A DNA stretch of 64,000 bases from Pseudomonadota bacterium (GTDB taxonomy: Bacteria > Pseudomonadota > Gammaproteobacteria > Burkholderiales > Rhodocyclaceae): positions 37,170 to 101,169 of the forward strand of contig JAGTRU010000012.1 of the NCBI GenBank assembly GCA_018261905.1, written 5' to 3'. The notes beneath the pieces were generated by a model. It searched no databases. It was not told where the DNA came from and saw nothing but the letters and a program-made list of their open reading frames with translations. The position numbers and the translations under genes are program-made. Positions 19,284 through 26,800 of the stretch are shown here, piece after piece; the first letter of the stretch is position 1; each line of letters starts with the position of its first letter.

Positions 19284-19330
19284 AAATGGCTCGGAGATAT
19301 TTTCAATGAAATATCTTCGAGCCATTTTTT
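19284..19330 (+). terminator. Rho-independent terminator after the SHOCT gene
   Basis: AAATGGCTCGGAGATATTT-TCAATG-AAATATCTTCGAGCCATTTTTT: long hairpin plus T-run. Confidence 0.85.
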
Positions 19331-19399
19331 GTACTTGGGCATTGGACTGTGGTTGCCAATCCCGGGATTGATCCTTGTGCATATGGCAGCCCCCTTGGC

Positions 19400-19524
19400 T
19401 TCTGGACTTTTGTCAGGCAGCCCGCCAGCCGGCGACGTGTCATGTCGTCCCTGAGGCCGTTCTGCCATGCCGTGAACTCGGGCAGGGGCTTGATTGAGTG
19501 GGTGGTTGAGTTGTACTCGGGCAA
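19400..19524 (-). pseudogene. 5' relic of HI1419-type (RelE/HigB superfamily) toxin gene
   Basis: SIKPLPEFTAWQNGLRDDMTRRRLAGCLTKVQK vs intact SIKLLPEFTAWLNGLKDGMTHRRLARRLEKAQK at 21994-22290; similarity then breaks off. Confidence 0.8.
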
Positions 19525-19613: not shown

Positions 19614-19811
19614 ATGCGCACGACGCTCGCCCTCGATGATGATTTGCTTGCCAAGGCCCAGGCCTTGACTGGGGTTTCGGAAAAAACCGCCTTGATCCGC
19701 GAAGCCCTGCGCGCGCTGATCCAGCGCGAAAGCGCCAAGCGTCTGGCGCTGCTCGGCGGTTCCGAGCCGCAACTCGATTCCGTACCACGGCGCCAGACGG
19801 AGCCGGCATGA
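19614..19811 (+). CDS. vapB: VapB-type antitoxin
   Basis: MRTTLALDDDLLAKAQALTGVSEKTALIREALRALIQRE; overlaps the PIN toxin gene. Confidence 0.88.
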   Translation: MRTTLALDDDLLAKAQALTGVSEKTALIREALRALIQRESAKRLALLGGSEPQLDSVPRRQTEPA

Positions 19812-20179
19812 TCCTGGTCGATACCTCGATCTGGATCGACCATCTACGTCAGCGCGACGAGCGCCTGAGCAAACTGCTCAATCAGGGCCAGGTGCTGGCC
19901 CATCCCTTCGTGATCGGCGAACTGGCCTTGGGCAGCCTGCAAAACCGCGCGGCGATCCTCGGCGCGTTACAGGATTTGCCGCAAGCACCGGTTGCCACGG
20001 AAGGCGAGCTCCTGAGCTTCATCCAGCAAAATGCCCTCTACGGTATGGGCATCGGCTACATCGACGCGCATTTGCTGGCCGCGGTACGTCTTGCCCCGGG
20101 CGCCGCATTGTGGACGCGTGATAAACGGCTGCTGGCAGCAGGCACGAGCTTGGGGTTGGTGGAAAATGGGGGGCATTGA
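19808..20179 (+). CDS. vapC: VapC-type PIN-domain toxin
   Basis: MILVDTSIWIDHLR..., VIGELALGSL, GYIDAHLLAA, LWTRDKRL: PIN acidic residues present. Confidence 0.92.
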   Translation: MILVDTSIWIDHLRQRDERLSKLLNQGQVLAHPFVIGELALGSLQNRAAILGALQDLPQAPVATEGELLSFIQQNALYGMGIGYIDAHLLAAVRLAPGAALWTRDKRLLAAGTSLGLVENGGH

Positions 20180-20411: not shown

Positions 20412-21572
20412 ATGTACCTACGTCAAGCCCGCAACACCTTGGACCGGCTAGCCCGGGGCTTCCCTGTGCTGGCCTTGACCGGGCCGCGTCAGTCCGGCAA
20501 GACGACGCTGGCGCGGGCCGGTTTTCCCGACAAACCTTATATTTCGCTGGAAAACCTAGACGAACGGGACTTTGCCGAGCATGACCCCAAGCGCTTCCTG
20601 GCGCGCTTTCCCGAAGGGGCGATTCTGGATGAAGTGCAGCGTTGCCCGGCGTTGTTGTCCTGGTTACAAGGCGTGGTCGACGAATGCCCGGTAATGGGCC
20701 AGTTTGTGCTGACCGGTTCGGCCCAGTTTGATCTGATTGCCGGCATGAGCCAGTCGCTGGCCGGCCGGGTAGGGCGGGTCGAACTGTTGCCGCTGTCGCT
20801 GACCGAAATGCAGGATGGCGACTGTCTGCCGCCGACGCTGGACCGCTTGCTGCTCAACGGCGCTTACCCGGCCATCTATCAGCGCGACCTGGCGGCGACG
20901 GACTGGTTTCCCAACTATGTGGCAACCTATCTGGAGCGCGATGTCCGGCAGATCATCGCCGTGCGCGATCTGTCGCAGTTCCAGCGCTTCGTGCGGATGT
21001 GCGCGGCACGCTCCGGGCAATTGCTCAATCTGGCGGCCCTGGGTGCCGATTGCGGCATCTCGGCGGTGACGGCGCGCGACTGGCTGTCGGTGCTGGAAGC
21101 CAGCTATCTGGTGACCCGTCTGCCGCCGTACTTCCAGAATTTCGGCAAACGCCTGGTGAAAACGCCCAAGCTCTATTTTCTCGATGTCGGCCTGATGGCC
21201 TGGCTGCTGGGAATCCGCGACGAAGCATCGCTAGCCACCCACGCCGCCCGAGGCGCCCTGTTTGAAACCTGGGTGGTGTCAGAACTGATCAAACAACGCT
21301 TTAATGATGGCCAGCCGGCCGACCTGTACTTCTGGCGCGATAGCGCCGGGCACGAAATCGACGTGGTATTCGAAACCGCCGCCGGTTTACAGGCAGTTGA
21401 AATCAAGTCCGGTAGCACCTTCGCAGCGGACTGGGTGGATGGGCTGAAGAAATGGCAGAAAATCGCCGGCGATACACCGACCCTGAAGCCCATCCTGATT
21501 TATGGCGGCGAGGACAGCCATGAGCGGGAGCGCTGTTTTCTTACCGGGTGGAAGGATGTGGGGCGGGGCTAG
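20412..21572 (+). CDS. AAA+ family ATPase with DUF4143 C-terminal domain
   Basis: Walker A LTGPRQSGKTTL, LDEVQRCPALL, FVLTGSAQFDL, C-terminal VEIKSGSTF. Confidence 0.92.
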   Translation: MYLRQARNTLDRLARGFPVLALTGPRQSGKTTLARAGFPDKPYISLENLDERDFAEHDPKRFLARFPEGAILDEVQRCPALLSWLQGVVDECPVMGQFVLTGSAQFDLIAGMSQSLAGRVGRVELLPLSLTEMQDGDCLPPTLDRLLLNGAYPAIYQRDLAATDWFPNYVATYLERDVRQIIAVRDLSQFQRFVRMCAARSGQLLNLAALGADCGISAVTARDWLSVLEASYLVTRLPPYFQNFGKRLVKTPKLYFLDVGLMAWLLGIRDEASLATHAARGALFETWVVSELIKQRFNDGQPADLYFWRDSAGHEIDVVFETAAGLQAVEIKSGSTFAADWVDGLKKWQKIAGDTPTLKPILIYGGEDSHERERCFLTGWKDVGRG

Positions 21573-21678: not shown

Positions 21679-21990
21679 CTACGAAGGTGTGTGAATCGGC
21701 TGGGCGACCAGGCGAACGCCGAGCGCCGCGCAAACCTTGCTGATGGTTTCAAAACGCGGGCTGGCATCCGGGCGCAGCGCCTTGTAGAGGGCTTCGCGGG
21801 TAATCCCGGACGCCTTGGCAATGTCGCTCATGCCCCGCGCCCGCGCAATGGTGCCCAGCGCATCCGCCAGCGCCGCCGGATCATTTTCTTCCAGTATCAC
21901 GGTCAGATACTCGGCAACGGACTGCTCGTCCGGCAAATGCTCTGCCATGTCGAATTCGGGCAGATCGGTGATTTTGATTTTTCGGGTCAT
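21679..21990 (-). CDS. Addiction-module antidote, HI1420-type (HigA-like)
   Basis: GMSDIAKASGITREALYKALRPDASPRFETISKVCAALGVRL; typical family HTH, downstream of toxin. Confidence 0.9.
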   Translation of the reverse strand: MTRKIKITDLPEFDMAEHLPDEQSVAEYLTVILEENDPAALADALGTIARARGMSDIAKASGITREALYKALRPDASPRFETISKVCAALGVRLVAQPIHTPS

Positions 21991-21993
21991 CGT

Positions 21994-22290
21994 TCAATCC
22001 TCCAGCATGGCGGCCAACCTGACGGCCTTGGCAATATCAGTTGTCTGCGTGCCTTTGTCGCCACCACCCAGCATCACAATCAGCACCTCGCCGCGTTGCA
22101 CGTAATACATGCGCCAGCCGGGTCCGAAGTGCTCCCGCATCTCAAACACGCCATCGCCAACCGACTTCACATCGCCAAGATTGCCTTTCTGGGCTTTCTC
22201 CAGGCGGCGCGCCAGACGACGATGCGTCATACCGTCCTTGAGGCCGTTCAGCCATGCGGTGAACTCGGGGAGGAGCTTGATCGAGTACAT
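21994..22290 (-). CDS. Addiction-module killer protein, HI1419-type (RelE superfamily)
   Basis: LPEFTAWLNGLKDGMTHRRLARRLEKAQKGNLGDVKSVGDGVFEMREHFGPGWRMYYVQRGEVLIVMLGGGDKGTQ. Confidence 0.92.
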   Translation of the reverse strand: MYSIKLLPEFTAWLNGLKDGMTHRRLARRLEKAQKGNLGDVKSVGDGVFEMREHFGPGWRMYYVQRGEVLIVMLGGGDKGTQTTDIAKAVRLAAMLED

Positions 22291-22417
22291 GGGTAAAGTG
22301 TAGTCGTTCGATTACGGTTGGTCAATTTTGAGCTGGGGGAGTCAAACCGTGGTCTGGCCGCTGTTGTTGCTAATCTCTCTGACCCTTTCGGTTTGTGATG
22401 CCTTTGGTTTGTGCAAA

Positions 22418-23077
22418 TTATGTGAAGCTAAGTACCATTTGGCGCACATAACTTCCCCAGTCTCGGTAACATCTTATCGAGGCAGATTTAACTGATGGAG
22501 CACCTTCCGTTACATCAAGTTTTTCTTTTAGAAGCCACATGGTTTGAGATATGTTTTTAATAGTTTTGTGTGCATCAAGGTTTGGAATAATTCCGGAGTC
22601 AATGAACCCTTTGTTTAAGTTTTTTGGGCCGCGGTGAATATTTTCTTGCCAAAAGTTTTTTTCTCTTTCATTCTTTGGTTCGATATTTCTTGACTCGAAG
22701 TTGTATGACCAATAATTAAATTCATCTTTCATTTTTTCAAACAATTTCTCTGAGATTATGAATATATCTAGATCAGAGTGTGGGCCAAAAGTTTTGCCCA
22801 ATTTATTGGGCGCGAGTGATTGGCCAATTCTTGCGCTGCCAGATAAATGAAGATCTTTTGGATCTACATCTAGCCGAATGCTAAGCCAGCCTCTAACTGA
22901 CTCGTAAAGTGCAGGATTGTCTCGAAAAGCATAAGGGATTCCTTCGGACATCCATAGTCGGGCTATGGCAATCTTCGACTGCTCGCCTCCTTTTTTTGCA
23001 GCATCGAGAAGTGCACTGGCTTCAGGATATGTGCCTGTAAGCTTAGCCAATTCGCTTGGTACTTTAAAAGCTTCCAT
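22418..23077 (-). CDS. Nucleotidyltransferase-fold (pol-beta-like) protein
   Basis: LHLSGSARIGQSLAPNKLGKTFGPHSDLDIFIIS: GS...DLD signature; AT-rich; 10 nt downstream of the GT51 gene. Confidence 0.75.
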   Translation of the reverse strand: MEAFKVPSELAKLTGTYPEASALLDAAKKGGEQSKIAIARLWMSEGIPYAFRDNPALYESVRGWLSIRLDVDPKDLHLSGSARIGQSLAPNKLGKTFGPHSDLDIFIISEKLFEKMKDEFNYWSYNFESRNIEPKNEREKNFWQENIHRGPKNLNKGFIDSGIIPNLDAHKTIKNISQTMWLLKEKLDVTEGAPSVKSASIRCYRDWGSYVRQMVLSFT

Positions 23078-23087
23078 CGTTTTAGGC

Positions 23088-23648
23088 CTATTTTTTCGGA
23101 ATGGACGTTGTGTGGCGCTGAAGAATATAACTGGCTCGGGTTTTTATTTTTTTAATTCTATCAATGCTAGGGGTTTGGGGCTCTGGGTATTTTAGTCTAG
23201 CAACTATTTCGGCAGCTAAGTATGAGGTGATAGATTTAGGGTCAAAATTTAGACGTATAGCAGCTTGTTTGATTCCATTCATCTGCCATCCATAATAGGC
23301 AATCATTAGGTATATTCTTGGAATATCATTCTTTCCAATAATTTTTGTTATCCCTAATGCAAAAATTATTTCGATTAACTTTCTTTTGAGTGTTCTCTGA
23401 TAGCGTCCAGTTAGTACTCTTACTAGTTGCATCGCAATGGTTGAGCCGCCTTCGATTTTGTTTCCCCGAAGCATTTTCCAAGCCGCGCGAGCTAACGATT
23501 GAAGATCAACACCTGCATGTGACCAAAATCGATGGTCTTCTGCAACAATGAGCATTGTTGTTAGTTCTTCTGATATCTGAATATATTGGCATTTAGATTG
23601 AATATCTTTGGCCCGTGTTATTAGTAGAGTCCATTCTTCTAGCAGCAT
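23088..23648 (-). CDS. Stand-alone GT51 (transglycosylase) domain protein, no recognised signal or anchor in the annotated ORF
   Basis: VAEDHRFWSHAGVD, EGGSTIAMQLVRVLTG, TLKRKLIEIIFALGI, NGIKQAAIRLNFDP align with PBP1A GT51 motifs in this same window; no transpeptidase domain. Confidence 0.85.
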   Translation of the reverse strand: MLLEEWTLLITRAKDIQSKCQYIQISEELTTMLIVAEDHRFWSHAGVDLQSLARAAWKMLRGNKIEGGSTIAMQLVRVLTGRYQRTLKRKLIEIIFALGITKIIGKNDIPRIYLMIAYYGWQMNGIKQAAIRLNFDPKSITSYLAAEIVARLKYPEPQTPSIDRIKKIKTRASYILQRHTTSIPKK

Positions 23649-23859
23649 GATCGTATAAATTAACCTAACCGAAATATATAAATGGACTATGTTTGGCCGA
23701 GGCTCGATACATATTCATATTGCCGCTTATCCATAAATGGCAAAGGATTGTATCGCCAAGCGTGCAATGAGTAAGAAGCCCCCAGGCTAGTTGACGGCTG
23801 TTTATGGCGCAAGTATTCAGTCGCGGGGAGTGGTCAATCCAATCTAGCACTCCCATCCC

Positions 23860-26800
23860 TTATATCCTCAACCGCGAATACCCAACCCCGCCGCCCTTCT
23901 CAACCCGTATCTGCGCCGGAATCCGTTCCTTCATGCCTTCGACGTGGCTGATGACGCCGATCATCTTCCCGCTGGCGTTCAGGGTGTCGAGGGCGTTGAG
24001 CGCGATTTCCAGGGTGTCGGCGTCGAGGGTGCCGAAGCCTTCGTCGAGGAATAGCGAGTCGATTGAGGTCTTGTGGCTGACCAGGTCGGAGAGGGCGAGG
24101 GCGAGCGCCAGACTGACCAGGAAGCTTTCGCCGCCCGATAGCGTGCGCGTGTCGCGGGCGACTTCGCCTTGCCAGCTATCGACGATGTCGAGTTCCAGTT
24201 CGCCGCTGCTTTTGCGGCGCAGCAGGTAGCGGCCGTGCAGGCGGGCGAGGTGGGCGTTGGCGAGGTGCAGCAGGTGGTCGAGGGTCAGGCCCTGGGCGAA
24301 CTTGCGGAACTTGTCGCCTTTGGCCGAGCCGATCAGGCTGTCGAGGCGTTGCCAGAGGTCGCTTTCGGTGGTCTGCGCGGCGATTTCCTTGAACAGCGCT
24401 TGCTGGTTCTGGCGCGCCTGTTCGTCGCGGGTGAGCAGGGCGCGCTGGGCGCCGAGTTGTTCGCTGAGTTCGCGGCGCGTGGTGTCGAGTTGAGTTAGGA
24501 GGTATTCCAGTTCAGGGAGGGTTGGGAACCCATCCCCCTCCCAGCCTCCCCCTTGAAGGGGGAGGAGTTTGGCCGGCGGGCTGCTTTGCAGGCGCAGCAG
24601 CTTTTCGCTGGCGGCCTTGAGCACGGCAGCGGCCTGCTGCTGGGCGAGTTGCCGGGCTTCCTTCAATTGCAGCAGGCGCTGGCGTTCTTCGGCGGGGAGC
24701 AGCGCCGCCGCGTAGGCGGCGAGGTCGGCGAAGGGGCTGGCGGCGAGGTCGGTTTGCCAGGCGGTCGACGCGTCGGCGAGGGCCTTTTTCTGTTCTGCCA
24801 GATTGGCGGCGAGCTGCGCCTGCCGGCCTTGCTGGGCGGCGAGTTGCTGCGTCAGGTCGGCGATGGCTTCGGCGCAGCGGGCGAGGGCGGCGGCCGGGTT
24901 GGCGCTGACTTCCGCCAGTTTTTGCCCTTCCTGGGCGGTCGACCGTTCGGCGGCGACGATTTTCCAGCGGTCCTGCCAGTGCGCGGCTTGCGCCTGCGCG
25001 GCCTCAGTGCGGTCCTGCTGCTTGACGAGAATTTCGCCGAGTTCCTGGCGGCGTTTCTGCGTCTGCTGCCAGTGTTGCCATTCGCCGTCGCGCTCCTGCA
25101 GCCAGGCGGCGGGTTCGGCGGGGATTTCGTAGCCGGCGGCGCTCAGCGTGGCGCCGAGTTTGGCGTCGAGGTCGACCTGTTCCTGGGCGATGGCTTGTGC
25201 GGCTTTGGCGAGTTCGGCCTGGCGTTGCTGGCCGGTTTGCGTCGCCTGTTGCAGCAGTTTCTGCTGGTTGCCGGCGTTGAGCAGCGTCTGCGCGGCTTCG
25301 GCGGCGGTTTTGCGGGCGGCGTTGAGCGCCTGTTCGCCCTGATCGGCGGCTTGCAGGCGTTGGGCGAGTTGGGCCAGCGCCTGTTCGGCGGCGGCGCGGC
25401 TGGCAGCCAGGATTTTTGCGTCCTGCCAGGCGTCGACCGCGAGGGGTGTGGTGCTGGCGAGGTTGGCGACCAGTTCGGCCCATTCCGCTTGCAGGTGGGC
25501 GCCATCCGCGGCCGTCTTGCTTTGCTGCTCGAGCAGGACCTTTTGCGTCGTTTGCGCCGCGGTTTGCTCGTTGCGGGCTTGCTGGCCGGTTTCCACCAGC
25601 GCGTCGAGCGCCGCCTGCTTTTCCTTGAGCGCGTTTTCGGTCGTGGAAACGTCGAGCGCCGCGTAGTCGGCAATCGCCGGGTGTTCGTGCGCGCCGCACA
25701 GCGGGCAGGCGTCGCCCGGCTGCAGTTGCCGGCGATGCTCTTCCAGGCTGCGGATGCGCTGTTCCTGTTCGAGCAGTTTTTTCTTGTCGGCGACCTGGGC
25801 GGCGAGTTCCTTGTGCTGTTCGCGCAGGGCGACCAGCTTTTTCTCCTGTGCTTCGATCTTCGCCTGCGCCTGCTGTAATTGCGTCGCCTGCGCGCTTTGC
25901 GTCGCGGCGAGTTCGCGCCGGCGCTGGGCGAGGGCTTCGAGTTGTTGCCAGCGATTCAGGCCGGTTTGTTCGCGCTGCCAGTGCTGGCGCAGTTCGGCCA
26001 GGGTCTGGCCGGCCAGGCGCTGGTTTTGTTCGGACTGGATTTTTTCCAGCGCGGCGTCGGCGGCGGTTTTTGCCTTTTCTGAGAGGACGACCGCTGTGGC
26101 TTGCGTGGCGAGTTGGCGGGCGGTGGCGGCGAGTTCATCGGCCAATTTTTGCTGCGCCTGCTGCTGGGCGGCGAGGTCACGGCCCAGTTTTGCCTTTTGC
26201 TCGAACTGCTGGCGCCAGACGCCGAGGCGTTCGCCGAGTTGGGCGCGTTGCGGCTGGGCGGCGCAGAAGTCGTCGATTTGTTTGGCTTCGCTCTGGCTGA
26301 GTTGCAGGGCCTGCTGCGCCAGGGTGGCGACTGCGGCGCTGTAGTGCCGGGCGGCGGCGTGCTGGGCGAGCTGTTCGGTTTGCAGCTTTTCGCGGGCGGC
26401 GTGCAGGGTTTTGAGTTCGTTTTCGCTGTGCTGGCAGGCGGCACCGGCCTGTTGCCATTGCAGGTGCAGCGGTTTGAGCGTTTCGGCCGGTTCGCTGGCG
26501 GTGAGCCTGGCCAGTTCGGGCGCGGCGGCAGTCAGCGCAGCCTCGGCTTCCTGCTGCTTGCCTTCGGCGGCTTTGACTTCCTGCTCGCCTTGCGCCAGGT
26601 CGAGGCGCCACTGGCGCTGGGCTTGGGTTTGATCGTGGTGGCGCTGGACGTCGGCGAGTTGCATATCGAGGCGGGCGACTTCGGTTTGCATCGCGGTACG
26701 TTGCTCGTCAGAGAGCAGTTCCATGCCGTCAGCGCGGGCTTTGAGCTGGTCGAGCTGGCTTTTTGCCTCGCGCGCCTGCTCGAAAACCTTGCGCGAAATT

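Follow-up and report, generated by a model that had tools for sequence, protein, structure and literature searches.

GT51 enzymes polymerise lipid II, which is made on the inner leaflet and then flipped outward. Peptidoglycan precursors are also attacked from the cytoplasm in conflict modules, by the Zeta/PezT toxins, which are kinases of UDP-GlcNAc. Nucleotidyltransferases occur in several described systems. The HEPN/MNT pair (HepT/MntA) is a mobile module of two genes, one of which encodes MntA, a small nucleotidyltransferase with GS...DxD that neutralises HepT by the addition of AMPs via a GSX10DXD motif (PMC7641770). In CBASS, a nucleotidyltransferase is combined with exchangeable effectors of the DNA or the envelope type, and nucleotidyltransferase toxins are represented by MenT (PMC10435456). 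The DUF262 domain is known for its role in defence (PMC10952713) and, as GmrSD_N with the DGQQR motif, is shared by GmrSD, BrxU, SspE, PD-T4-2, Menshen and GrwAB.

The locus described here lies in a 64-kb stretch of DNA, which as a whole is referred to as the window, and pairs a GT51 protein with a nucleotidyltransferase-like (NTase) protein. It is neither HEPN/MNT nor MenAT, PADLOC does not recognise it as a CBASS, and it is not MtgA or a PBP. Its mode of action may still resemble that of an MNT-type or CBASS-type switch. The GT51 protein has the same fold and catalytic motifs as the monofunctional enzymes MtgA/SgtB and the GT51 domain of class A PBPs, but it has no anchor, signal or transpeptidase, its YLN motif is changed, it has a constant NTase partner, and it belongs to a separate clade. 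An ordinary HEPN/MNT pair was rejected because partner and motif spacing fail: the partner is GT51 or, in a sister branch, DUF262, with no HEPN domain, and the NTase has the spacing GS-X20-DxD, extra N- and C-terminal parts and no recognisable third carboxylate. Unlike in CBASS, the NTase has only about 200 aa and no PADLOC CD-NTase match, the partners are not known Cap effectors, and there is no sign of a cyclic-nucleotide receptor. Compared with MenAT and AbiE, no AbiEii/DUF1814-type match is obtained for the NTase in Pfam or NCBIfam. The DUF262 proteins listed above contain the domain of the sister-branch partner, whereas the window module has GT51 instead, and in the literature examined the NTase is not a described component of those systems. 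The proposed cytoplasmic attack on peptidoglycan precursors is reminiscent of Zeta/PezT, which have an unrelated fold and no GT51.

The gene pair and its surroundings

Both genes were recovered as intact minus-strand open reading frames with ATG starts and a gap of 10 nt from GT51 to NTase, as a sequence-only reading of the window had described.

23088-23648, minus strand: gene 1, GT51-only protein, 186 aa, ATG start, PF00912
22418-23077, minus strand: gene 2, NTase protein, 219 aa, ATG start, sub-threshold PF01909
23538-23540, minus strand: first catalytic Glu of GT51, E37 of AEDHRFWSHAGVD, invariant in the 5-member alignment and aligned with EDxxFxxHxG of 3nb6/2oqo
23370-23372, minus strand: second conserved Glu of GT51, E93 of RTLKRKLIEI, invariant in the 5-member alignment and aligned with RTLERKIKE of 3nb6
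22835-22840, minus strand: GS motif of the NTase, G80-S81, invariant in 21 of 21 aligned members
22766-22774, minus strand: DxD motif of the NTase, D102-L-D104, both Asp invariant in 21 of 21 aligned members

The GC content of the 1231-bp pair is 0.394, against a mean of 0.620 (standard deviation 0.050) for all stretches of that length in the 64 kb. The minimum among these is 0.389, at position 22501, which places the pair essentially at the bottom of the range and means that its low GC is not due to chance. The claim of a strikingly AT-rich stretch is therefore well founded (39% GC versus 62% in the window), and the hand count behind it, 16 G or C in 22681-22740, is exact.

PF00912 is the sole Pfam match of the first protein (E=1.3e-34 over residues 17-178), in agreement with its earlier description as a GT51 fold only, and every motif quoted in that description is present. 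Given its 186 aa and the absence of a transpeptidase domain, it does not qualify as a class A PBP. E37 (EDHRF), E93 (RKxxE), GxST..Q and the basic residue that follows it, R77, are invariant in the five aligned copies and have aligned counterparts in S. aureus MGT and Aquifex PBP1A; reading of the sixth copy (L047) reveals these motifs as well. The best Foldseek matches of the predicted structure (pLDDT 69) are S. aureus MGT 3vmt and Aquifex PBP1A 3nb6 (prob 1.00, TM about 0.64). Fold and motifs (EDxxFxxHxG, G(G/A)STxxxQ, RKxxE) together satisfy what defines the GT51 family. In a tree with 26 other GT51 domains, most of them parts of bifunctional PBPs, the six copies, all of which are short, group on a branch of their own (100/100). 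They have in common a private ending, RLKYPEP, and carry YLS, YLM or YMR instead of the usual YLN.

No membrane segment or export signal was found in any of the six GT51 copies, for which the highest mean hydropathy over 19 residues is 1.0-1.5. The value for the window protein is 1.26, and the anchor of the PBP1A encoded in the window, used as control, gives 2.74. With nothing above 1.5 in six proteins, the N-terminal anchor of monofunctional MtgA and class A PBPs is lacking. Since neither anchor nor export signal is present, it is inferred from the protein sequences that this GT51 would be made in the cytoplasm.

The second protein matches PF01909 below threshold (E=0.026, Pfam) and phrog_32008 with E=9.4e-9 (PHROG 32008, function unknown, matched by relatives). 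PADLOC, NCBIfam and a PDB sequence search assigned it to no family; a PDB match to an AI-designed TIM-barrel consisted of one short stretch repeated four times, below threshold, and was disregarded. Judged by these comparisons at the sequence level, the NTase is a new family related to phrog_32008. The GS...DLD signature that had been pointed out is present and invariant in relatives, with 20 residues between the two motifs in the window protein. When compared with a Pol beta-like core (hG[GS]...DxD with a third acidic residue), GS and DxD are invariant and the third acid is not found, there being no recognisable third acidic residue or carboxylate in the 21-member alignment. Structure prediction is of no help here: the AlphaFold model, made with four input sequences, has a pLDDT of 52 and no Foldseek match, and carries no argument. 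Given the missing third carboxylate and the poor model, catalysis by the NTase is not assured.

The toxin-antitoxin cluster said to adjoin the pair was confirmed, with VapBC and HigB/HigA-like genes.

19614-20179: VapBC toxin-antitoxin
20412-21572, plus strand: AAA_14/DUF4143 ATPase, PADLOC candidate defence family PDC-S01 (E=1.6e-105)
21679-22290: HigB/HigA-like toxin-antitoxin
22297-23860, no strand: variable slot between sbcC (which ends at 23860) and the promoter region of the HigB-like gene, with the pair as its cargo here

In the same region, a small ORF at 19303-19524 resembles the start of the HigB-like protein of 21994-22290 (IKPLPEFTAWQNGL) and is an apparent relic of a duplicated toxin-antitoxin gene. 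The pair is missing at the sbcC site in nine congener sequences that carry sbcC, where other DNA is found, and in L065 the same pre-HigB sequence as in the window is preceded by different cargo. The DNA 3' of sbcC differs in nearly every genome inspected (L063-L067, L069, L072 and L073), as in a variable slot of the genus. No convincing flanking repeats or att sites were found around the pair, and promoter and terminator scans gave no signals there above chance level.

Recurrence of the pair and its sister branch

Lack of conservation as neighbours would have refuted the proposal of a two-component module, but adjacency holds at six independent loci. These comprise, with the window, two genomes of the window's order, Pseudomonas, a Campylobacterota plasmid and two (pro)phages; identities below are to the window proteins.

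L003, 5989-7213: pair in a Pseudomonas MAG, NTase 57%, GT51 43%
L030, 9406-10660: pair in Aliarcobacter cryaerophilus plasmid pM830MA, NTase 53%, GT51 43%
L034, 1500-2742: pair in viral contig IMGVR_UViG_3300013000_000077, NTase 57%, GT51 45%
L036, 5159-6471: pair in viral contig IMGVR_UViG_2791355582_000001, NTase 36%, GT51 34%
L047, 9367-12100: genome G962, of the window's order, GT51 intact and NTase broken

The order GT51 then NTase is kept at all six loci, and where both genes are intact the intergenic distance ranges from a 14-nt overlap to 25 nt. L003, L034 and L036 were reached via the GT51 gene alone, so that the presence of the NTase beside it in all three is an independent observation. 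In G962, a frame change and a transposase gene lie inside the NTase while the frame and motifs of the GT51 are intact, a natural NTase-minus state. Both viral copies were missed by viral-contig scans with 3-row alignments and were found with a DNA pattern for ARLKYPEP; another locus from that scan, L035, was rejected, given that a profile search finds neither gene there.

The pair is rare. A search of well over a thousand genomes with the NTase found it in two, and it is absent from all of the roughly 36 congeners and 200 family members searched. Of the 25 GTDB GT51 loci, L003 alone has the score of a close relative of the solo GT51; most of the others are bifunctional PBPs, and none has an NTase match nearby. 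Three GT51-NTase pairs used as queries had no match in E. coli genomes, and members of the NTase family had none in phage records.

Several copies are found in mobile or defence-type settings. On the Aliarcobacter plasmid, PADLOC identifies Septu-like PDC-M01AB/PtuA, Hp1-Hp2-Hp3, bSEFIR (E=1.4e-83) and PDC-S21 (E=4.9e-118) on the flanks of the pair, and this neighbourhood is a defence island. In L034, the pair is at the end of a P2-like prophage tail cluster, after gpD and the tape measure gene, and in L036 it is in a prophage cargo region between Dam and umuC/integrase. Neither the window copy nor the Pseudomonas copy lies within a recognisable prophage. Five of the six GT51-NTase loci, and all 14 DUF262 loci computed, are AT-rich relative to their surroundings. 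With the Aliarcobacter island, the two prophages and a sister branch in the P2 A-Q hotspot, the family is placed in defence islands and prophage hotspots. Two further genes of L034 may be mentioned: the chromosomal gene past the pair reads, from its ORF, as a mismatch DNA glycosylase, and a 179-aa ORF (L034:2977-3516), located between the pair and tail gene D of the P2-like cluster, has no Pfam or PADLOC match and is possibly further prophage cargo.

The sister branch is larger, with 16 loci where the NTase is directly upstream of a DUF262/GmrSD_N gene; L055 is counted among them though its contig ends before the partner. The DUF262 partner was checked with Pfam at four loci, and elsewhere the DGQQR motif was seen in the listed sequences.

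L029, L032, L048 and L049: genomes G158, G496, G1039 and G1139
L031 and L033: a Pseudoalteromonas plasmid and a 6.2-kb Cronobacter plasmid
L037: P2-like prophage of E. coli strain 1500
L053-L061: nine viral contigs
L037:3286-4880, L060:4830-6507 and L061:4941-6601: NTase-DUF262 pairs between gpA and the portal gene of P2-like prophages

These NTases are 16-23% identical to that of the window over the full length, and the sole E. coli match came from a query with a DUF262-type pair. In the NTase tree, a single branch with 100/100 support has the GT51-linked members on one side and the DUF262-linked members on the other. The NTase is the second gene in the former and the first gene in the latter, and the DUF262 partners retain DGQQR. 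Given that GT51 and DUF262 pair with branches of the same family, this is one NTase family with two exchangeable partners, one DNA-restriction-like and the other envelope-related. The A-Q hotspot of phage P2 is where old, tin and a large number of defence systems are found (PMC9122126, PMC9519451). For the pairs between gpA and the portal gene, PADLOC gives a good match for the DUF262 partner only (NsnA, PD-T4-2_A), and the NTase-DUF262 pair in this hotspot is a good separate candidate for a defence system. A C5 cytosine methyltransferase adjoins the pair in L049, L058 and L059 (in L058 by sequence reading). At these loci (L049:5230-9979, L058:3339-7946 and L059:3706-6597), NTase-DUF262 appears as if in a larger restriction-type operon, with Vsr in L049 and an SRA/HNH protein in L058.

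Proposed role and alternative explanations

That the pair is a recurrent mobile module can be stated with high confidence. A role in defence or another conflict between elements is probable, in the absence of phage challenge or toxicity data. The transferred two-component conflict module put forward in the sequence-only reading is therefore supported, with its function among defence, toxin-antitoxin and envelope attack untested, and nothing named there as refuting it holds: besides the conserved adjacency, full lengths, separate clades, intact GT51 motifs and intact NTase GS and DxD speak against a decayed fragment, and neither protein matches PADLOC, which for the libraries used excludes a remnant of a known element.

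The best reading, which remains tentative, is that of a horizontally moving two-gene conflict module, most likely anti-phage, with the NTase as switch and a cytosolic GT51 as effector. It builds on the observed recurrence, mobility, intact motifs, missing anchor, defence-type settings and partner exchange. Given that the NTase is common to both branches, it is inferred to be the sensing or switching component, with GT51 and DUF262 as alternative effectors. The GT51 would be a peptidoglycan glycosyltransferase that remains in the cytoplasm, and it is on account of this location, without anchor or export signal, that it is inferred to act on, or bind, lipid II before flipping, with harmful effect. 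Once switched on, by a phage trigger that is itself inferred, it would use, or bind, the unflipped lipid II of the inner leaflet, and cell-wall synthesis would be starved or blocked until the infected cell stops growing. Action on inner-leaflet lipid II under NTase control is a possible but uncertain part of this scheme, given that intracellular activity is inferred and that access of an anchorless GT51 to lipid II is unproven. In the sister branch, the effector would be a DUF262/GmrSD_N protein acting on DNA, in a layout of one switch with exchangeable effectors.

Among the alternatives, the pair could be a toxin-antitoxin system in which a cytosolic GT51 toxin wastes lipid II and the NTase, as a MntA-like antitoxin, adenylylates it. 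Two small adjacent or overlapping mobile genes beside toxin-antitoxin pairs are what would be expected of it, MntA is a precedent for such an antitoxin, and GS and DxD are invariant in the present NTase. It is nonetheless unlikely: the third carboxylate is missing and the motif spacing is X20 rather than X10, the NTase is second in the GT51 branch yet first in the DUF262 branch, and the intact GT51 beside the broken NTase of G962 would be an unopposed toxin, hard to reconcile unless unexpressed. Because such a toxin is not expected to persist in G962, the NTase as activator is favoured over the NTase as antitoxin, although this is one genome and absent expression could explain it.

The loss of the NTase in G962, where the GT51 survives, fits an NTase that is itself the toxin, MenT-like and directed at tRNA or another target, with the GT51 or DUF262 protein as a repurposed regulator or antitoxin, and the NTase is indeed the constant component of both branches. 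This reading is improbable, given that the GT51 retains all its catalytic residues across 34-45% identity, which is unexpected for a mere binding antitoxin, and that the DUF262 partners likewise retain DGQQR. Equally improbable is prophage or plasmid cargo that alters the envelope, for instance for superinfection exclusion via a peptidoglycan change, with the NTase as accessory or unrelated passenger. Prophage and plasmid locations, and the normal role of GT51 enzymes in building peptidoglycan, agree with it, but none of the six GT51 copies has an export signal or anchor, and the NTase is no passenger because it adjoins the GT51 at all six loci. A decayed PBP fragment and an unrelated gene, drifting without function, would account for AT-rich foreign DNA and for one of two genes already broken in G962, but it can hardly be maintained when copies that are 34-57% identical to the window proteins still agree in length, order and motifs, and when those of the GT51 group together, separately from PBPs, with 100/100 support; conserved motifs and separate clade contradict it.

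The NTase switch with a cytosolic GT51 effector can be extended to a new immune family built on the NTase, with effectors that can be exchanged and with CBASS-like logic but unrelated parts. On infection, the NTase would switch on either a DUF262 DNA effector or a cytosolic GT51 that uses up lipid II on the wrong face of the membrane. This broader proposal is doubtful at present. We know of no earlier case of a GT51 enzyme that serves as effector in a conflict system. No description of an NTase-GT51 or NTase-DUF262 pairing was found in PADLOC, Pfam, NCBIfam or open-access papers, in line with the earlier statement that no described system with the GT51-NTase pairing was known to its author; subscription papers and recent defence catalogues were mostly outside the search, and the pairing is new against the libraries searched.

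If the proposal is true, a cell-wall polymerase would join the list of immune effectors, and inner-leaflet lipid II would be suggested as a target of abortive infection. It would also reveal nucleotidyltransferase switches that, within one family, exchange an effector directed at DNA for one directed at the envelope, and would give a concrete label to the phrog_32008-type prophage proteins of unknown function.
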